From assembly GCA_021775555.1 (NCBI GenBank), contig JAJFHP010000054.1:1-60513 (forward strand): a stretch of 60,513 nucleotides of DNA, written 5' to 3'. The stretch is from Hyphomicrobiales bacterium (lineage in GTDB: Bacteria; Pseudomonadota; Alphaproteobacteria; Rhizobiales; Methyloligellaceae). A program made the position numbers and the translations under genes. Below, one piece after another: positions 11,206 to 51,555 of the stretch; position 1 is the stretch's first letter, and each line of letters opens with the position of its first letter. Under the pieces are notes generated by a model. It was not told where the DNA came from and made no database searches. It saw only the letters and a list, made by a program, of their open reading frames with translations.

Positions 11206-11954
11206 GCGCTCCGGGAACCTGTGTGGTCTGGAATACGAAGTGGTTTGGGGATCAGCTTCAACACCAGACGCACCAATGGCGTGAACAGATTTGTCATGTG
11301 ATAGCAAAGCGGCGTTGCCATGAACCAGCCAATGACGACAAGAGCCGGCACGGCTCCACCCATGACATTATCGGTCAGCCAATGGGCGCCCCCCACGAGG
11401 CGGGGAGCCATGAATATCACCCCCAAAAGAGCTGTTGCCACGACAATCTTTCGCGGAGCAAGGCACCAGAAATAGGTGATAATGCTTATCAATATGAAGG
11501 CGTGGTCCCCCGGGAATGATCGGTTGGAAATATCCTTGGCCCCAAAGCCCGGCATCAGCTGCGAGAGCCGCAGTGCATCGTCATATACCAGTGTCGGGGA
11601 GAGCCGGTGATATTGAAATACGTGCCTGTTCAGGAGATGAGTTGTGAATGGTACGACCATGAGCACAATCGCTAGAGCGCCGAGGGCGGCGCAGAGCCGG
11701 TTTTGTACCTCGCGCGGCTGACCCCAGAGCCACCAGACAAAGATCAGTGCGGTGAGCCCCCCGGACAGAAAATCAACCTGCCGGTTATTGCCCAGCGCCC
11801 AGAACATCTGCCACCAGTACCCCAGGCTCAAAGACCCGTTGATGAGGCGAAACAGGCCTGCATCCAGCATGTCCCACAGATCTCGCGTGACCGGCAGGAA
11901 CCAACTCGCCAGCAGAAGGCAAGCCGCCAGATGAAACCAAATCAGGGTTTTCAC
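11202..11954 (-). CDS. PAP2-family membrane phosphatase
   Basis: A 250-residue polytopic membrane protein with about six helices. The acid-phosphatase motifs are SFPGDHAF (second motif with the catalytic His, Gly-Asp replacing the common Ser-Gly) and RLVGGAHWLTD (third motif with Arg and His). Family members remove phosphate from lipids such as phosphatidate, undecaprenyl pyrophosphate or lipid A. The variant GDHA form is found in lipid-A/Kdo-associated phosphatases, but the substrate here is not determinable. It converges on the ExbB/ExbD-like unit with a 4-base overlap. Confidence 0.88.
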   Translation of the reverse strand: MKTLIWFHLAACLLLASWFLPVTRDLWDMLDAGLFRLINGSLSLGYWWQMFWALGNNRQVDFLSGGLTALIFVWWLWGQPREVQNRLCAALGALAIVLMVVPFTTHLLNRHVFQYHRLSPTLVYDDALRLSQLMPGFGAKDISNRSFPGDHAFILISIITYFWCLAPRKIVVATALLGVIFMAPRLVGGAHWLTDNVMGGAVPALVVIGWFMATPLCYHMTNLFTPLVRLVLKLIPKPLRIPDHTGSRSA

Positions 11955-12034
11955 TCGCCAGCCGGGTTCGGGCAGGCGAGTGCCCCCTACCGGGTCACTC
12001 CGGATTTCAGCTTGTTTTGACAGTAGATCAGCCC

Positions 12035-12814
12035 CTATTGCTTGTAGCCTTGGTCCACCCGATCAAGCTTACGCAGCAACGCCGGCCATTCCTTGACGCC
12101 AATCGGGCGATGGCCACCCGGTGCATTGGCTTCCCGGTTTCGTTCGATCGTGACGCGCTGCACTTCGGCAGGAATTTCCATCGCCTCGGCCCCCGATTGC
12201 TGGAAGGCAAGCTGCATACGGCAGGCGCGCTCAGCGCGGTACATCCACACAAAAGCCTCCGCCACAGTTCGCCCGACAGTCAGCAGCCCGTGGTTGCGCA
12301 GGACAAGCACTCGATTGTCGCCAAGATCGCGCACAAGACGTTCGCGCTCCTCAAGGTCCGTGGCGATGCCCTCATAATCGTGATAGGCGGTGGTGGCTAT
12401 CACCGTCAAAGCGTGCTGGGTCAGGGGCAGCAACCCCTGTTTCTGGGTCGCGACGCCAGTACCCGCCGTCGTGTGGGTATGCATGACGCAGGCGATGTCA
12501 GGACGGGCCATATGTACCGCTGAATGAATGACGAATCCGGCCGGGTTTACGTCATAGTCAGTGGGGGAGAGGATATTTCCCTCCTCATCCACCTTGACCA
12601 GCGAGGACGCTGTAATTTCTTCAAACAGCAGTCCATAGGGATTGATGAGAAACTGGTCCTCCTCACCCGGCACCCGCACCGAGAGATGGGTACCAAGCAG
12701 GTCGGTCCAGCCAAAAAGGTCAACCAGACGGTAAGCGGCTGCAAGATCGACGCGCGCCCGCCATTCGGCCTCGCTTACATGATCTCGGAAATCTTCGGCA
12801 GCAGTCATGACCAT
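12035..12814 (-). CDS. Class II aldolase/adducin-family protein
   Basis: A 259-residue protein of the class II aldolase/adducin head fold. Metal-binding histidines are seen in MHTHTTAG and LRNHGLLTVG. Members include L-fuculose-phosphate aldolase and ribulose-phosphate epimerase; those in catabolic clusters of alphaproteobacteria often lack a proven substrate. A strong GGAGGTAA site precedes the ATG at 12814, with a second ATG two codons later. It is the last gene of a minus-strand row with enoyl-CoA hydratase and CoA-transferase upstream, which suggests acyl-CoA breakdown. Confidence 0.87.
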   Translation of the reverse strand: MVMTAAEDFRDHVSEAEWRARVDLAAAYRLVDLFGWTDLLGTHLSVRVPGEEDQFLINPYGLLFEEITASSLVKVDEEGNILSPTDYDVNPAGFVIHSAVHMARPDIACVMHTHTTAGTGVATQKQGLLPLTQHALTVIATTAYHDYEGIATDLEERERLVRDLGDNRVLVLRNHGLLTVGRTVAEAFVWMYRAERACRMQLAFQQSGAEAMEIPAEVQRVTIERNREANAPGGHRPIGVKEWPALLRKLDRVDQGYKQ

Positions 12815-12838
12815 TTACCTCCGGAGTGCAGGTTAGCC

Positions 12839-13645
12839 CTATCGGCCCTTGAATACGGGTTTGCGTTTTTCCATGAAGGCGCGCCGGCCCTCGATGTAAT
12901 CTTCAGAATCAAAACAGGCCTGCACCATGGCTTCAAGCTCATCCAGCTTTCGGTTATCCGGGTCCGAGTTGATTTCACGTGCCGCACGCTTGATCGCGGC
13001 AATGGTCAGTGGCGCATTCTCACCAATGCGCGTGGTGATATCGCTGACATAATCATCGAGTTCATCATCCGGCACGCAGGCATTCACAAGACCCATCTCA
13101 TAGGCTTCGCGCGCCGGGAACTGCCTGGCTGTGAAGAACATCTCCATGGCGCGCGACACGCCGACAATGTCCGACAACCGTTTCAGCCCGGTAAATCCAT
13201 AGCCCAATCCCAACCTGGCGGCGGGAATGCCAAAGCGCGCGCTCTCGTTGCAAATGCGCAAATCACAGCACATGGCGAGGTTCGCGCCGCCGCCGATGCA
13301 ATAGCCCTGTATGCGGGCAATCGTTGGCTTGGGAAAATTGTAAAGCTTATCATAAGCAGAAGCTGATGCTGCCGCATATGCCGCCACGGCTTCTTTGGTG
13401 GAGCGTTCGGACTCGAACTTGGAAATATCCGCGCCTGATACAAAAGCCTTGCCACCAGCACCGCTCACAACCAGAACCCGGATTTCATCATCCCCGAGAA
13501 ACGAGTCTATCACCGCGCCCATGGCCTGCCACATATCGAGAGAAACCGCATTGTGTCTGGCCGGATTATTGAAAATAACATGGCCAACGGCACCATCCTT
13601 GCGGCCTATCAGCTTGTCGTCAGATTCAGCGATATCCAGCATCAT
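12839..13645 (-). CDS. Enoyl-CoA hydratase/isomerase family protein
   Basis: A 268-residue crotonase-fold protein. The oxyanion-hole segments are SGAGGKAFVSGADIS and RIQGYCIGGGANLAM. Position-specific catalytic Glu residues are not obvious, because the loop after GGGANLAMCCDLRI reads ARFGIPAARLGLG; the group also includes isomerases and decarboxylases. It lies between the aldolase (24 bases downstream) and the CoA-transferase (12 bases upstream), so all three probably form one transcript acting on an acyl-CoA. Length is normal. Confidence 0.9.
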   Translation of the reverse strand: MMLDIAESDDKLIGRKDGAVGHVIFNNPARHNAVSLDMWQAMGAVIDSFLGDDEIRVLVVSGAGGKAFVSGADISKFESERSTKEAVAAYAAASASAYDKLYNFPKPTIARIQGYCIGGGANLAMCCDLRICNESARFGIPAARLGLGYGFTGLKRLSDIVGVSRAMEMFFTARQFPAREAYEMGLVNACVPDDELDDYVSDITTRIGENAPLTIAAIKRAAREINSDPDNRKLDELEAMVQACFDSEDYIEGRRAFMEKRKPVFKGR

Positions 13646-13657
13646 GATGCGCCTTGT

Positions 13658-14845
13658 TCATATGGCGCCCTTGGCGCGCAAGTTCTCGATCTCGTCTTCA
13701 GAGTAACCAAGCGCTCCGAGAATTTCATCGCTGTGCTCGCCGCGCCCTGGCGGAGGCGTCCGAATGCCGCTTTTTGACCGGCTCATGAGAATGGGCTGGC
13801 CGAGATAATTCGTCTCGCCGCGCTCATTCGAAGGACCAGGCCAGCTTAATCCCAGATGCTGGACCTGTGGCAGGGAGAACACCTGGTCGATAGAGTTTAT
13901 CTCGCCACAGGGCACGCCCGCCTCTGTCATCCTGGCGATCCAGTTGACCCCGGTATCCTTCATGATATTCGCTTCGATTAGCTGGTTCAGTTTATCCCGA
14001 TTGTCTGATCTTAAACTGCCATCAGCGAAATCGGGATGGTCAAGCTCCGGATCACCAAGCAGTTCTTTCAGCCGCTCCCACATGGGCTGGCCCGCGCAGG
14101 CAATATTGATATAGCCGTCGGATGTCTTGAACACACCGGTCGGGATACTGGTCGGGTGGTTGTTGCCCGCCTGCTTGGGGACATGCCCGTCCATCAGCCA
14201 GCGCGCGGCCTGGAAATCCAGCATGAACACCTGCGCCTGCAACAGGGACGTCTGCACCCATTGGCCCTCGCCGGAACGCTCGCGCTCCAGAAGCGCCATG
14301 AGGATTGCCTGGGCGCAAAACAGCCCGGCGGTCAGATCAGCGATTGGAATGCCGACCCGCATTGGCCCCTCGCCGGGCTTTCCGGTAATCGACATCAGTC
14401 CGCCCATACCCTGTGCGATCTGGTCGAACCCAGGGCGGTCATAATTGGGGCCATCCTGGCCAAAGCCGGAAATTGAAGCGTAAATCAATCCCTTGTTGAG
14501 GGGTCTGAGATCCTCGTAGCTGATACCCAGCCGAGATTTTACGCCGGGGCGAAAATTCTCCATCACCACGTCAGCACTCGCGGCGAGTTTTTTAAAAACC
14601 TCCACGCCTTCTTCTGATTTCAGATTGATGGTGATGGCGCGCTTGTTGCGGTGCAGGTTTTGAAAATCCGGCCCGGCCCTTGGTCCACCCATACCGCCAG
14701 TATCATCACCGCCAGGTTCCTCAATCTTGATGATATCGGCCCCCCAATCCGCCAGCTGCCGAACGCAGGTGGGGCCCGAACGCACGCGGGTGAGATCGAG
14801 AACCGTATAGGGCGACAGGGGCGAATGAGATGGATCAGGGGACAT
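13658..14845 (-). CDS. CaiB/BaiF-family (class III) CoA-transferase
   Basis: A 395-residue CoA-transferase that moves CoA between organic acids. Catalytic Asp lies in PIADLTAG. The N-terminal VLDLTRVRSGP and the RNKRAITINLK segment are family hallmarks. It is the first gene of the CoA-transferase/enoyl-CoA hydratase/aldolase row and would activate the acid that the hydratase then processes. Length fits the family. Exact acid substrate unknown. Confidence 0.92.
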   Translation of the reverse strand: MSPDPSHSPLSPYTVLDLTRVRSGPTCVRQLADWGADIIKIEEPGGDDTGGMGGPRAGPDFQNLHRNKRAITINLKSEEGVEVFKKLAASADVVMENFRPGVKSRLGISYEDLRPLNKGLIYASISGFGQDGPNYDRPGFDQIAQGMGGLMSITGKPGEGPMRVGIPIADLTAGLFCAQAILMALLERERSGEGQWVQTSLLQAQVFMLDFQAARWLMDGHVPKQAGNNHPTSIPTGVFKTSDGYINIACAGQPMWERLKELLGDPELDHPDFADGSLRSDNRDKLNQLIEANIMKDTGVNWIARMTEAGVPCGEINSIDQVFSLPQVQHLGLSWPGPSNERGETNYLGQPILMSRSKSGIRTPPPGRGEHSDEILGALGYSEDEIENLRAKGAI

Positions 14846-15651: not shown

Positions 15652-16515
15652 CTATTTACCGCCAAGAAACTCGCAAATCCAGCGTTCATAATCGACATTG
15701 CGCTTGACCGCATCGCTGAGCGCACTAGATGGCAGCCCCTGTAGATCGGCGGGCTTGGTCCCTTCGCGCAGCGCCTTCATGGTCTCATGCACCGCTTGGT
15801 AACCGGCGGCAATCGGCTGATGTCCCTGCAGGCAAAGCCGCACATTGAGGCCGGAGAGATAATCGAGATCCTGCATATCGGCCGGAGAACCGCCAATGAC
15901 CAGCGGCAGATTCACTTCGCCCGCCACCGCTTCGAGATCCTCGCGCGTCTTCACTCCCACGAGAAAAAGCGCATCGACGCCGGCCTGCTCATAGGCTTTC
16001 ACGCGGGCAATCCCGTCGGCTAGGTCACGCGGTACCATTGAGGTGCGCCCGACAATTGCCATGCCGGTATCGCGGCGCGCCTCGAGTGCTGCTTTCATTT
16101 TGCCTACACCCTCCTCGATCGAGGTGAAGCTCGCGGGACGGGGACTGCCAAATTCCATCGGCAGTTCCGTATCCTCAACCGACATGCCGCAGATGCCGGC
16201 CATCTCGAGTTCCTCGACCGTGCGCATGACATTGAGCGCATTGCCATAGCAATGATCAGCATCAACCATCAGCGGCAATTCGCCTGCGCGGCAGATGCGC
16301 CGGCATTGCTCGGCGAACTCGGTCATGGTGACGACGATATGATCTGGCGCGCCGAGTACCGTTAGCGAGGCGACCGAGCCCGCGAACATCCCCGTCTCGA
16401 AGCCGATATCTTCCGCGATGCGTGCGGAGATGGGATCGAAGACGGAGGCCGGGTGCACGCAGCGGTCTCCTTCCAGAATGGCGCGAAAGGATTCACGCCG
16501 CTGTTTGAAGCGCAT
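15652..16515 (-). CDS. Oxaloacetate decarboxylase-like member of the isocitrate lyase/PEP mutase superfamily
   Basis: A 287-residue TIM-barrel protein. The segments HPASVFDPISARIAEDIGFE, VDADHCYGNALNVMRTVEE and VEDTELP match the oxaloacetate decarboxylase (PA4872-type) branch. The KKCGH loop Cys of lyases is absent, and so is the PEP mutase loop, which favours decarboxylation of a 2-oxo-dicarboxylate. One oddity is Cys in DADHCYG where Gly is usual. It is followed on the opposite-facing side by an aldehyde dehydrogenase gene on the same strand. It is a paralogue, not a copy, of the lyase at 998-1882. Confidence 0.85.
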   Translation of the reverse strand: MRFKQRRESFRAILEGDRCVHPASVFDPISARIAEDIGFETGMFAGSVASLTVLGAPDHIVVTMTEFAEQCRRICRAGELPLMVDADHCYGNALNVMRTVEELEMAGICGMSVEDTELPMEFGSPRPASFTSIEEGVGKMKAALEARRDTGMAIVGRTSMVPRDLADGIARVKAYEQAGVDALFLVGVKTREDLEAVAGEVNLPLVIGGSPADMQDLDYLSGLNVRLCLQGHQPIAAGYQAVHETMKALREGTKPADLQGLPSSALSDAVKRNVDYERWICEFLGGK

Positions 16516-40676: not shown

Positions 40677-41016
40677 GCCCTTTCGTGTTATTGGCCGGAG
40701 ATCATCCAATCGATTGCCCTTTACGGCAGCTGACTGTAATTGGATGTCACGGGCTATGAAGGCTGGGATACGCCACGACCAACGTATCATCATTGCAGGC
40801 AGGCCGATACAGCTCTAAAGGCTGCCACTTTTTGCGTTGGCATTTACTCCGGGACAACTGCCTGGCCAAAGCACATTTTTTGATCCCTCAAAAATGTCCG
40901 CAAGGGGTCAAGCTCCCGGGCAGACCGGCGCTATTTAATCGGTCCTGAATGGCCTCGGGACGTTCCGATAGGACCTCGCCATATCTGGAAGTCCAGAAAC
41001 TGTGTCGGATGAATTT

Positions 41017-41703
41017 CTACGGAAGCGATATTGCGCCCTGCGTCCTCCTCCACCCACCCAATCCAACAATGAAGGAGTACAAATAGGCGGTAAGGAAGGC
41101 CGCCGTAACCACCGGCGTAACGATGGGAACAAGCCATGCAGCTACCAAGGCGGCATTTACAAGACCAAGCGTTACGGCTGAATTGGCCCGGTCTATGATG
41201 GGATGGCGTATCGGGTACGGCACCAGCATCGAGACTGAATGTAATAAGAATACCGCGATCAAAATGTACTCAGGGTTGAAGTCAAACTGCCCAGCCAAAA
41301 GCAGGACGAACAACATGTGGCGCATGAGTTCGTTCGTTGGAGAGCCTGTTCCCCCGGTTGTCTTGGGATTGAGCCGGGTAACAATACGGACAAGGATCGA
41401 GCCGGCGGCTATCGCGCTCGCGGCGATGAGGAGGCTCCCGAAATGCGCACCGACCGCCAATGCGAGCGCAACGTGGGCGACCGCGTCACAAACGTTGTCG
41501 AGGTCGGCGCCGAACCGACTTCTGATGTTCAACTTGGCGGCCAAAAAGCCATCAAGGTCGTCCATGAAATTGTTGAAAATGATCAAAGGGATCACGTACC
41601 GGTAACCGTCGTCCAGAAAGAGAACCACGAGAGGCAGCACCCCGAAAATGGACGTTGCATTGGCCAGATTCCGATAGATGAAACTTCCCTGTGCCCCGCG
41701 CAT
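41017..41703 (-). CDS. CDP-alcohol phosphatidyltransferase family protein
   Basis: A 228-residue membrane enzyme with about six helices. The metal-binding motif is present as MDDLDGFLAAKLNIRSRFG followed by ADLDNVCDA, which fits DxxDG..A..(x)8GxxxDxxxD with Ala in place of the usual Arg after the first Ala. It transfers a phospho-headgroup from a CDP-alcohol to another alcohol. ATG at 41703 overlaps no other gene but is 2 bases after the methyltransferase stop, so the three genes 43402-41017 are a coupled operon. Headgroup and acceptor unknown. Confidence 0.85.
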   Translation of the reverse strand: MRGAQGSFIYRNLANATSIFGVLPLVVLFLDDGYRYVIPLIIFNNFMDDLDGFLAAKLNIRSRFGADLDNVCDAVAHVALALAVGAHFGSLLIAASAIAAGSILVRIVTRLNPKTTGGTGSPTNELMRHMLFVLLLAGQFDFNPEYILIAVFLLHSVSMLVPYPIRHPIIDRANSAVTLGLVNAALVAAWLVPIVTPVVTAAFLTAYLYSFIVGLGGWRRTQGAISLP

Positions 41704-41705
41704 GT

Positions 41706-42593
41706 TCAAGATGCGTCCTCCCCAAGAACGAAGAAGTGATTCTCCAACATCGGAAAAGCAATGCTCATCGCCTTGGGAACGCGTCTGATCCAGGGGCTCC
41801 CCAGGCGCATCCCGAAATACGTCAAATGCCCGACGGTCCGAAGGGCTTGAAACCGCACCGGCACAGTTTGCTTCCATTTCTCGATCAGTTCGATGCCCAT
41901 TTCCATGAGCACATAGGGCTCGTTCCTTTCGACGTGGCGGACGCTCAATCCGCATTGCTCAAAGATGCGCCTGTAGTCCGACACCGAACGATAGACGACT
42001 TGGTAATCGCCCGTGAGTGCCACGGCCTTGCCCCTGACGGTGGACTCGCGGCAGAGGATCATTCCGCCCGGTTCAATGCATGAAACCAACTTCCGCAACA
42101 AGGTAATCACGTCTCTTTCATTGAGATACATGAGGAGACCGCCGAGGAAGACCAAATCATAGCGGGCATCAGGCTCAAACGTCATGACGTCGCCATGGAT
42201 GGGACTGAGGTTGTGGTAGGGGGCGCATCTCCTTTGCAGGGACTGGAAAAGGGTGCGGCTACCCTCGACTGCCGTCACCAGGGAGAAACGACGCGCGAAG
42301 TTCTCCGCCCAGACCCCGATGCCGCTACCGAGATCGAGGATCGCACCGTCCCGCTTCACCCCACGGGTCAGCCGTTGAACGATCCGGGCTTCCTCCCGGA
42401 AACGGAAATCCCCCGCGCTTGCGGGAAAGCCGAAATCATCCATCATGTACGGTCCGAGGATCGACGCCGTGGCTTTTCCCCAATACCGGTTGACCTTAGC
42501 GTAGTCGATATCAGTCATTCGCGGCACGGGGGGTAACGGGTCTCTTGCCGGGGATTGACGGGGGGTAGACAGTGATGTCTCGATGACGGTCAT
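41706..42593 (-). CDS. Class I SAM-dependent methyltransferase
   Basis: A 295-residue Rossmann-fold methyltransferase. Motif I is ILDLGSGIGVWAENFA, followed by TAVEGS and LGGLLMYLNERD. The C-terminal extension (about residues 190-295) is not recognised. Its ATG overlaps the nucleotidyltransferase stop by 4 bases, and the CDP-alcohol transferase follows 2 bases later. In this setting it probably methylates the headgroup or lipid; a phosphoethanolamine-type N-methylation is an inference. Confidence 0.82.
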   Translation of the reverse strand: MTVIETSLSTPRQSPARDPLPPVPRMTDIDYAKVNRYWGKATASILGPYMMDDFGFPASAGDFRFREEARIVQRLTRGVKRDGAILDLGSGIGVWAENFARRFSLVTAVEGSRTLFQSLQRRCAPYHNLSPIHGDVMTFEPDARYDLVFLGGLLMYLNERDVITLLRKLVSCIEPGGMILCRESTVRGKAVALTGDYQVVYRSVSDYRRIFEQCGLSVRHVERNEPYVLMEMGIELIEKWKQTVPVRFQALRTVGHLTYFGMRLGSPWIRRVPKAMSIAFPMLENHFFVLGEDAS

Positions 42594-43402
42594 AGCCTTT
42601 GTGTCTCACCTCGGTCCATGTCCGGTTTTATTATCATTGCCGCGCGGCGGTTACCCTCGGCCGTCAGAATGCGTGGCAAAATCTCGGCATTGGCGCGCTC
42701 GATGTCGGCGGCGAAATCGATCTCGATCCAAGGCGTGCCGGTGATGTCCTCGAATGCGAAGGTGCTGCTTGGTGAAGTAAGCAGAACATCACGGATAGTC
42801 TCCTCGTAAGGCTCGTGGCGGCGGCCCTGGCGTAAATAAAGCTCGGTCTGAATGATGATCTTCCTGGCCACCTCTTCTGACAGCTTGAAAAAGCCCACCG
42901 ACTCACCGCAGAAATCAAACTCGGCGCTCAGCCATTTACGGAACTCGACGATCTCGCCATCCCGTACACATATTTTGACAGGCTCATCGCCCTGATCGAA
43001 GCCACGATCGAGGAGCAGGCAGTTCTCTTGGCGTGAGTTGATGAGACGCTCTACCACGTCTTCGCTGTAGAGGACGTCAGCATCCATTAGGAGGATCGGG
43101 CCCCCGCGACACAATTCGTCGCGCAGGGTCCACAAGGTGACGATGTTGCCCTCTTCATAATCCTCATTGAACACGGTTCTCACGAAATCCTGTGCCCCCA
43201 GGGCAGCGATCTCCCGCTCGATGTCTTGATGGTGATAGCCGACACCGAGTACCAACTCGTCTATGCCGTGTCGCTTGAGGATTTCGATATGGTATTGCAA
43301 CAAGGATTTGTCGCCGAAGCGCAGCAAAACCTTCGGTGGAGGCTTCGTGGTCGTAAATCCGAGCCGTTCACCGATTCCGGCCGCCAACATAACTACCCTC
43401 AT
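42590..43402 (-). CDS. Nucleotidyltransferase, LicC/PntC-like (CTP:phospho-headgroup cytidylyltransferase)
   Basis: A 270-residue nucleotidyltransferase of the LicC/IspD-like fold. The N-terminal MLAAGIGERLGFTTTKPPPK is the signature loop and Lys, NEDYEEGNIVTLWTLRD resembles the phosphocholine cytidylyltransferase loop, and TPWIEIDFAADIERA and LMDADVLYSEDVV are also typical. It would make a CDP-headgroup (choline, ethanolamine, aminoethylphosphonate or similar). GGAG lies 9 bases before the ATG. It is the first gene of the coupled unit with methyltransferase and CDP-alcohol transferase. Confidence 0.85.
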   Translation of the reverse strand: MRVVMLAAGIGERLGFTTTKPPPKVLLRFGDKSLLQYHIEILKRHGIDELVLGVGYHHQDIEREIAALGAQDFVRTVFNEDYEEGNIVTLWTLRDELCRGGPILLMDADVLYSEDVVERLINSRQENCLLLDRGFDQGDEPVKICVRDGEIVEFRKWLSAEFDFCGESVGFFKLSEEVARKIIIQTELYLRQGRRHEPYEETIRDVLLTSPSSTFAFEDITGTPWIEIDFAADIERANAEILPRILTAEGNRRAAMIIKPDMDRGETQRL

Positions 43403-43827
43403 ACACCATGCTCCACTTCACCGTCCGCTCACGGGACGACGAGTCTGCACCGTGCGCGCTGCCAGGCAGCGTGGCGGGGCGACCTCCCTCGACGAGTTAG
43501 GACAAATTGTTTCAGAAAGACTGGATCAATCTAACCGATCGCGTTCCATTTGGCCAATGGTGGAGCAGTCGAGTGAGCCAAGCAGACCCCTTTACGTTCG
43601 CTAACCGACGGGTGGCCTGGGTTTAGTGGTGGGTGGTAGCGGATGGCACCAGCCTGATCCGATACGGCAACAGGAAGCGTATGATCTCATTATTGAGGGG
43701 TTTGCGCTTGGCCGGTATCTCTGAGGAATGTCCGCTTTGTGCCAGAAGCGGACATTTGACGAGAATATCAATATGGTCGGCCAGTCTATAGAGGTTGGCA
43801 GTATCATCCTGGATTTAAGTACTGCTC
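43403..43827. other. Intergenic stretch with one palindromic repeat, no gene seen
   Basis: About 425 bases between the nucleotidyltransferase start and the CHASE2 gene stop. Short open frames here are low-quality and partly derive from the repeat at 43727-43756. Nothing else is supported; any promoter for the minus-strand lipid operon must lie in the right part. Confidence 0.6.
43727..43756. repeat. Palindromic interspersed repeat, copy B
   Basis: Near-perfect hairpin: arms AATGTCCGCTT and AAGCGGACATT around a short spacer (TGTGCCAG). A clear member of the family at 49897, 51085, 51482 and 51527. Confidence 0.8.
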
Positions 43828-49896: not shown

Positions 49897-49927
49897 AATG
49901 TCCGCTTTGCCCCCGAAAGCGGACATT
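49897..49927. repeat. Palindromic interspersed repeat, copy C
   Basis: Arms AATGTCCGCTTT and AAAGCGGACATT around CGCCCCCG-like spacer. One of the best-conserved copies. It lies between the TpsB gene and the next minus-strand gene, at the 3' ends of both. Confidence 0.8.
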
Positions 49928-51084: not shown

Positions 51085-51114
51085 AATGTCCGCTTTGGGT
51101 CTTAAGCGCACATT
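51085..51114. repeat. Palindromic interspersed repeat, copy D
   Basis: Arms AATGTCCGCTT and AAGCGCACATT with one mismatch in the right arm. Located between two minus-strand genes. Confidence 0.7.
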
Positions 51115-51395: not shown

Positions 51396-51481
51396 ATCTT
51401 CTCCCTCCCTAACCCATCGATGTGTGCACCACAACAGAAAGGGGCCCGTGCAATGCTGACGCCTGTATGAGGCGGTTTACG

Positions 51482-51509
51482 ATGTCCGCTTTGGGTCACA
51501 AGCAGACAT
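51482..51509. repeat. Palindromic interspersed repeat, copy E
   Basis: Arms ATGTCCGCTT and AAGCAGACAT with one mismatch; spacer TGGGTCAC. It lies 18 bases from copy F, making a pair. Confidence 0.7.
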
Positions 51510-51526
51510 AAAACCCCTCAGTTAGC

Positions 51527-51555
51527 AATGTCCGCTTTACCCCCGAAAGCGGACC
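51527..51555. repeat. Palindromic interspersed repeat, copy F (partial right arm)
   Basis: Left arm AATGTCCGCTTT is intact; right arm AAAGCGGAC is followed by CTC instead of ATT. The spacer ACCCCCG is nearly the same as in copy C. Confidence 0.65.

Follow-up and report, generated by a model that had tools for sequence, protein, structure and literature searches.

Positions 1 to 60,513 of contig JAJFHP010000054.1, from a Hyphomicrobiales bacterium of the Methyloligellaceae (assembly GCA_021775555.1), are here called the window; this stretch of 60,513 nucleotides carries on its minus strand an operon of three genes, for a nucleotidyltransferase (NT), a methyltransferase (MT) and a cytidine diphosphate (CDP)-alcohol phosphotransferase (PT). 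Comparison with related loci shows that this operon is a chimera of part of an NT-LicD operon and a separate MT-PT unit. We propose that the three enzymes form a CDP-headgroup pathway with an N-methylated lipid as its product and that the operon arose by replacement of LicD, a reading for which we consider the chances evenly balanced. In this pathway the NT would join cytidine triphosphate (CTP) to a small phosphonate or phosphate with an amine group, 2-aminoethylphosphonate (AEP) or its near-isostere phosphoethanolamine being the likeliest candidates, the MT would methylate the headgroup amine with S-adenosylmethionine (SAM) before, on or after activation, and the membrane PT would pass the headgroup from its cytidine monophosphate carrier to a lipid hydroxyl, yielding an N-methylated phosphonolipid or phospholipid. 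The three genes are:

42590–43402, minus strand: NT, predicted CTP-dependent nucleotidyltransferase of the PntC/LicC kind, 270 amino acids (aa) (Pfam; solved relatives 6pd1, then 1jyk; clade with NTs of AEP-lipid clusters)
41706–42593, minus strand: MT, class I SAM-dependent methyltransferase whose substrate is probably an amine, 295 aa (Pfam; solved relatives; Foldseek)
41017–41703, minus strand: PT, membrane protein of a rare CDP-alcohol phosphotransferase subfamily, 228 aa (Pfam; motif; found only beside MT in 385 genomes of the class)

The operon is a chimera of two gene sets

The tight packing of the three genes, noticed in a first-pass annotation made from the sequence alone, is confirmed: NT and MT have the four bases ATGA in common as a start-stop overlap, and PT starts with the ATG at 41703, 2 bases past the MT stop, and ends at 41017 (the 312-aa open reading frame (ORF) listed for PT is only the longest mechanical start, and 228 aa were used throughout). 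The same trio, and the same chimera, recurs in the same order at locus L003 of a second genome, with 93.4% DNA identity over window positions 40911–43755; outside this cassette, a comparison of the whole window with the 16.8 kb of L003 turned up nothing but a 29-base repeat. Because the same genes in the same order thus recur without shared surroundings, the trio is more than a chance arrangement. The ratios of non-synonymous to synonymous substitution (dN/dS) between window and L003, 0.13 for NT, 0.18 for MT (from residue 27 on) and 0.23 for PT, show purifying selection on all three genes.

A scan of 84,980 genomes, which detects close relatives only, gave 18 NT loci, 17 of them at 64–96% identity and one a Selenomonas protein at 27% (L020), excluded from the close relatives before counting. 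At L004–L019 the gene after NT encodes LicD (PF04991 in 16/16) with a hydrophobic stretch in its N-terminal region, and this ORF overlaps that of NT by 4 bases in 12 of the 16 (L004–L012, L016, L017, L019), the remaining four being listed with a longer mechanical start. The window matches these loci by BLASTN at 85–87% over NT and upstream DNA (42581–43743 for L004, 42580–43633 for L005, 42572–43581 for L006), and matches the MT-PT loci at 82–86% over MT, PT and some downstream DNA (40939–42570 for L050, 40957–42564 for L053). The change of resemblance falls within a few codons. Identity to L004 and L006 is 9 of 10 bases both in 42600–42591 and in 42590–42581 and drops after 42580, and identity to L050 and L053 is 2 of 10 in 42580–42571 and 8 of 10 from 42570. 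The MT starts of the window (MTVIETSLS) and of L003 (MTGIEVSLS) resemble the LicD starts of L006 (MTGIEASP) and L007 (MTGIDVSLST), the common pattern being MTGIE.S. Four features of the junction can be placed:

42571–42580, minus strand: crossover point, in the first codons of MT (ten-base identity counts, BLAST ends)
42581–42593, minus strand: first MT codons, inherited from the start of the LicD gene that was replaced (N-terminal comparison)
43403–43755, minus strand: upstream region common to L003 and the NT-LicD loci (BLASTN ends at 43755 for L003, 43743 for L004, 43756 for the second piece of L006 and 43633 for L005)
43727–43756, no strand: palindromic repeat with dispersed copies, located where the shared stretch ends upstream (inverted pair, AAGCGGACATT)

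The donor of the second half appears to be a rare linked pair. MT was found in 4 of 385 genomes of the class (E up to 1e-12), with three copies in genome G303, and in a sample of 398 genomes of the phylum only in the window's own. PT occurs in three of the class genomes at four loci (the window, L050, L051 and L053), and since MT lies directly upstream at all four, the conclusion that MT and PT belong together is supported. G303 is 7% contaminated, and the L050 PT has an in-frame stop. A second draw across the class, starting from G303, yielded the identical set of genomes, and the orders of G411 and G323 contain only 4 and 1 genomes. L050 and L053 have the pair without a working NT adjoining, and upstream of their MT lies a stretch that, judged by eye, resembles a decayed NT end. 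We would thus explain the operon by the exchange of the LicD gene of an NT-LicD operon for an MT-PT pair whose own NT had been lost or had decayed.

Such an exchange could also have joined genes of different pathways by recombination and nothing more. LicD follows NT at every one of the 16 other close loci and MT-PT stands without a working NT at L050 and L053, as this explanation expects. Against it, the start-stop overlap was retained after the exchange, the trio is intact in two genomes without shared surroundings, all three genes have dN/dS of 0.13–0.23, and the MT-PT loci show the apparent remnant of an NT upstream. The MT relatives L052 and L054 also adjoin NT and PT genes; L052, a remote copy in G303 (35%), is convergent to an NT and a CDP-alcohol transferase. 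In G411, the fourth genome with MT, the gene (56%) comes after another NT, a pyridoxal phosphate (PLP) enzyme resembling CobD (172.8 of 290.55 bits) and a CDP-alcohol transferase resembling PssA. We regard two separate pathways as quite improbable. LicD is a user of CDP-headgroups, and PT would use them too, which would explain how NT could change partner. For LicD this use is stated for choline (PMC10434233, of which a part was available). The claim of the first-pass annotation that packing makes the genes one pathway stands for MT and PT, linked at 4/4 PT loci, but not as a proof from packing alone, given that LicD follows NT in 16/16; and its own doubt, that relatives might place the genes in different pathways, holds halfway for NT through its LicD partner, though LicD, too, uses CDP-headgroups.

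The cassette is flanked by genes unrelated to the trio, one side encoding a transglutaminase-like protein and the other a FecR protein and a protein with CHASE2-PAS-GGDEF-EAL domains. Its G+C content (56.2%, window 56.0%) gives no sign of transfer, and promoter and terminator scans at shuffle level (1 against a shuffle mean of 1.5, and 4 against 3.2) give no information on the transcript. A phage or plasmid source was also looked for: 50,697 phage records held a single distant NT match (26.3%, Cobetia phage), and the plasmid collection held zero matches to MT or PT. The palindrome AATGTCCGCTT...AAGCGGACATT is found in the window at 43727–43756, 49897–49927, 51085–51114 and 51481–51537, AAGCGGACATT having 14 matches at up to 1 mismatch where 1.14 would be expected. 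Further copies occur close to the cassette in L003 (7601), L004 (9854) and L050 (7624–7660), and the repeat may mark recombination points. After the NT-LicD pair, L009:10117-11700, L013:10156-11724 and L015:5020-6579 encode a PehA-like sulfatase-family protein (family scans for those of L009 and L013), which may hydrolyse the headgroup ester.

Relatives of the three enzymes and the predicted headgroup

All three proteins score above their Pfam cut-offs, NT for NTP_transf_3 (44.5 bits, cut-off 27), MT for Methyltransf_25 (49.3 bits, cut-off 27) and PT for CDP-OH_P_transf (37.4 bits, cut-off 22), and their families fit the logic proposed in the first-pass annotation, in which a headgroup is activated with CTP, methylated and passed to an alcohol. 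The NT has the NTP-transferase fold with LAAGxGxRL and the lysine motif of PntC and LicC, and its best solved relatives are Treponema PntC-AEPT (6pd1, E 2.9e-14) and LicC (1jyk, 6.4e-11), followed by inositol-phosphate cytidylyltransferases. Among plasmids, 43 records matched NT, 26 at no more than 29.4% identity and 17 at 42–49%. The latter group includes Mycetohabitans and Roseomonas records annotated with phosphoenolpyruvate (PEP) mutase, phosphonopyruvate decarboxylase, AEP transaminase and a CDP-alcohol transferase, and the same genes were found by tblastn in unannotated Burkholderia and Cupriavidus loci. In Rhizobium rhizogenes, NT is accompanied by a dioxygenase and by LicD.

The window NT, the LicD-type NTs and the NTs of these AEP-lipid clusters, to which the window NT is 42–47% identical, form one clade in two trees (support 98/99 with 23 rows, 100/99 with 24), both of which drew a long-branch warning from the program, seven distant rows having been dropped from the second. 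In both trees this clade is separate from the PepM-fused NTs and from rhizobial PepM-linked NTs, and the AEP-lipid NTs come closest to the window's own clade from outside it. The parallel with phosphonolipid synthesis drawn in the first-pass annotation was thus apt. Glu104 and Glu196 of Treponema PntC are close to the amine of AEP, and LicC has Asp at both positions, according to the available part of PMC6697681. The aligned residues of NT are D107 and E200, one LicC-like and one PntC-like, and this pair is present in 23/23 rows of the clade, AEP-lipid enzymes included. Judged from the alignment, D107 and E200 agree with an aminoethyl headgroup and fit AEP, phosphoethanolamine and larger amines alike.

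For MT, the four best solved relatives (5wp5, 5wp4, 6wlf and 4krg, E 3e-14 to 2.3e-7; next 3.2e-6) are phosphoethanolamine N-methyltransferases, and the RES and YR stretches align with domain 1 of Arabidopsis PMT. The resemblance to the plant and nematode enzymes is remote, 56 bits at best, and MT, unlike them, has one domain and adjoins NT and PT genes. An AlphaFold model of MT (mean confidence, pLDDT, 76, from 7 sequences) is usable in part; a Foldseek search with it returned many class I methyltransferases, the top target TM-scores (about 0.8) belonging to N-terminal amine methyltransferases, with phosphoethanolamine methyltransferases at ranks 8 and 10. These comparisons make an amine a plausible methyl acceptor.

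PT retains the CDP-alcohol phosphotransferase motif D..DG..AR..G...D...D at all its acidic residues and glycines: D48, D51, G52, A55, G65, D69 and D73 are invariant among 6 sequences, and in place of the usual Arg after A55 there is Ala (Lys in L051). The L050 PT, with its in-frame stop, was omitted from alignments A2 and A3. The first-pass annotation had itself asked whether the transferase might be the housekeeping PgsA or PssA, an identity we rejected and find scarcely credible: PT does match both curated models weakly, at 30.5 of the 107 bits for PssA and 28.7 of the 109.1 bits for PgsA, far under both cut-offs; of 297 genomes of the order, 118 had some match, the best outside the window's own at E 8.4e-6, the level of a superfamily member and not of a close copy; and the window's genome has, on a different contig, a distinct gene resembling PgsA (91.3 of 109.1 bits).

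In a choline-type (Kennedy) route the MT would convert phosphoethanolamine to phosphocholine as in plants and nematodes, the NT would make CDP-choline and the PT would form phosphatidylcholine or attach phosphocholine to another alcohol. The solved relatives of MT, the LicC-like Asp at D107 and a genome lacking a PEP mutase over cut-off (see below) would all fit it. We nevertheless hold it to be unlikely, as the closest clade outside NT's own is that of the AEP-lipid NTs, E200 is PntC-like where LicC has Asp, and the operon, the part of the genome that was searched for them, showed neither a choline kinase nor a LicB-like ORF.

In L095:2990-7612, on a Mesorhizobium mediterraneum plasmid, a class I/II PLP enzyme, an NT, a CDP-alcohol transferase and a GHMP kinase stand in a row, and L054 has a similar set of PLP enzyme, NT and CDP-alcohol transferase together with MT; these sets perhaps make lipid headgroups from phosphorylated amino acids. 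The amino-alcohol route hinted at by L095 was set aside, having no bearing on the NT clade of the window.

Headgroup supply and the weight of the evidence

The best link between MT-PT and AEP is genome G323, which has the MT-PT pair with no working NT beside it and, elsewhere, a PEP mutase over cut-off (390 bits) in a complete AEP cluster whose NT belongs to the clade (46.5% identity). In this cluster (L096:1-17001) the genes for NT, PEP mutase, phosphonopyruvate decarboxylase and AEP transaminase are found in the midst of hopanoid genes (those for squalene-hopene cyclase, HpnG, HpnH and an HpnL-like protein), and ORF 11516-14809 encodes HpnN, the hopanoid transporter, fused to a CDP-alcohol phosphotransferase domain, a layout which suggests a phosphonate-capped hopanoid. 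A terpene-phosphonate has already been suspected for Acetobacteraceae, in the part of PMC8776678 that was available. In G303 a PEP mutase scores 298 bits over 207 of 284 positions, near cut-off and interrupted by the contig end, and L097 of that genome has this fragment, HpnN and a CDP-alcohol transferase close together. On a Roseomonas marmotae plasmid (L085), AEP genes stand beside ispH, a polyprenyl synthetase, an MMPL transporter and a VacJ lipoprotein. A narrower version of our proposal, in which a hitherto undescribed bacterial lipid, a membrane lipid capped with an N-methylated aminoethylphosphonate headgroup, is made from environmental AEP through an NT recruited from a glycan-decorating operon, seems to us rather doubtful; its lipid could be isoprenoid, because the AEP genes of related genomes sit among hopanoid genes.

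Several observations weigh against the proposed pathway. No PEP mutase reaches the 319.55-bit cut-off in the window's genome (117.3 bits; 97.5% complete), in that of L003 (116.6) or in G411 (30.5), so that AEP would need to be taken up, or phosphoethanolamine used instead. Among the 16 genomes with a LicD-type NT, whose completeness is unstated, four have a PEP mutase over cut-off, one of them with an internal stop, and one more reaches 268 of 319.55 bits. MT comes near the cut-off of no NCBIfam model and is a full match to no named family, and its fold search was unspecific, pointing to many N-methyltransferases and not to one family. The D107/E200 pair is mixed between LicC (Asp/Asp) and Treponema PntC (Glu/Glu) and also occurs outside the clade, in L091 and L095. 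The PT model (pLDDT 47) is unusable, leaving the predicted acceptor to rest on family knowledge, and PT is not close to the PT of the AEP-lipid clusters (37% over 46 residues to that of L084). The full trio is known from two genomes only.

Within the window, two PF13714 ORFs (998-1882 and 15652-16515) were considered as PEP mutases and rejected; they resemble relatives of methylisocitrate lyase and not PepM, and score below all cut-offs. ORF 998-1882 adjoins aconitase-like large and small subunits. No PEP mutase, phosphonopyruvate decarboxylase or AEP transaminase was found beside NT-PT among the ORFs around the trio.

The headgroup might also come from a phosphorylated amino acid. Phosphoserine-type metabolites would be available in any cell, and NT might activate phosphothreonine or phosphoserine, MT N-methylate it and PT hand it to a sugar or lipid, as in a CDP-amino-acid route. 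This would share the logic of NT, N-methyltransferase and CDP-user with Clostridioides CD0241-CD0244 and Pseudomonas PA1088-PA1091, as they are described in the available parts of PMC10714395 and PMC11833859. The phosphotransferase there is TagF-like, whereas here it is a CDP-alcohol transferase, and the phosphatase-like fourth gene has no counterpart among ORFs 40911-43755. We judge this route distinctly improbable. A search of the open-access literature for a serine-phosphate decarboxylase found nothing.

Known systems and implications

The proposed CDP-headgroup pathway shares one part or another with several known systems. NT with a CDP-alcohol transferase occurs in phosphonolipid clusters, described for Nostoc and Burkholderia in the part of PMC5987646 available. 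The AEP phosphonolipid clusters of Mycetohabitans, Burkholderia, Cupriavidus and Roseomonas have, like the window, an NT of the same clade beside a CDP-alcohol phosphotransferase; in contrast to the window, which has a methyltransferase and another PT subfamily, they have PEP mutase, phosphonopyruvate decarboxylase and AEP transaminase beside the NT. The NT-LicD operons of uncultured Alphaproteobacteria (L004–L019) have NTs 64–88% identical to that of the window, the nearest of them sharing upstream DNA and the start of the second gene, but this second gene encodes a membrane-anchored LicD in place of MT and PT. With the Lic-1 pathway (LicA-LicB-LicC-LicD) the window would share a LicC-like activation by CTP of an amine-bearing phospho compound, as far as can be predicted from the protein; Lic-1 includes LicD, whereas a search of the window's genome, the one genome examined, found none and a membrane CDP-alcohol transferase stands in its place.

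The flagellar glycan clusters CD0241-CD0244 and PA1088-PA1091, compared here by description, combine an NT, an N-methyltransferase and a CDP-headgroup transferase as the window does, but have a flagellin sugar as acceptor, a TagF-like transferase and a phosphatase-like gene; the proposed headgroup is phosphothreonine, and forms of CDP-threonine have been proposed (PMC10714395, PMC11833859, PMC8861647, each available in part). A survey of bacterial phosphorylcholine genes covers the Lic-1, PmtA, Pcs and acylation routes and, in the part available, does not include this trio (PMC10434233), and our searches of the open-access literature found no description of NT, MT and a CDP-alcohol transferase together. 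Each half of the pathway logic is known, and the three-enzyme combination looks new. The first-pass annotation had called the combination unrecognised, which is right for the trio but not for NT with a CDP-alcohol transferase, nor for NT with an N-methyltransferase and another phosphotransferase; its interpretation as a whole is partly supported.

A product of the predicted kind would have precedents. Methylated AEP is known in animal phosphonolipids, as ceramide N-methylaminoethylphosphonate in a soft coral (PMC10608786), and trimethyl-AEP is an intermediate in Streptomyces (PMC9296572), as stated in the available parts of these papers. If the proposed pathway is correct, an uncultured bacterium without a PEP mutase over cut-off would make a lipid with an N-methylated phosphate or phosphonate headgroup. 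Moreover, a single recombination within a few codons would have rewired an activating enzyme from a glycan to a lipid transferase and added a headgroup methyltransferase in the same step, and CDP-headgroup pathways would then be built from exchangeable parts.

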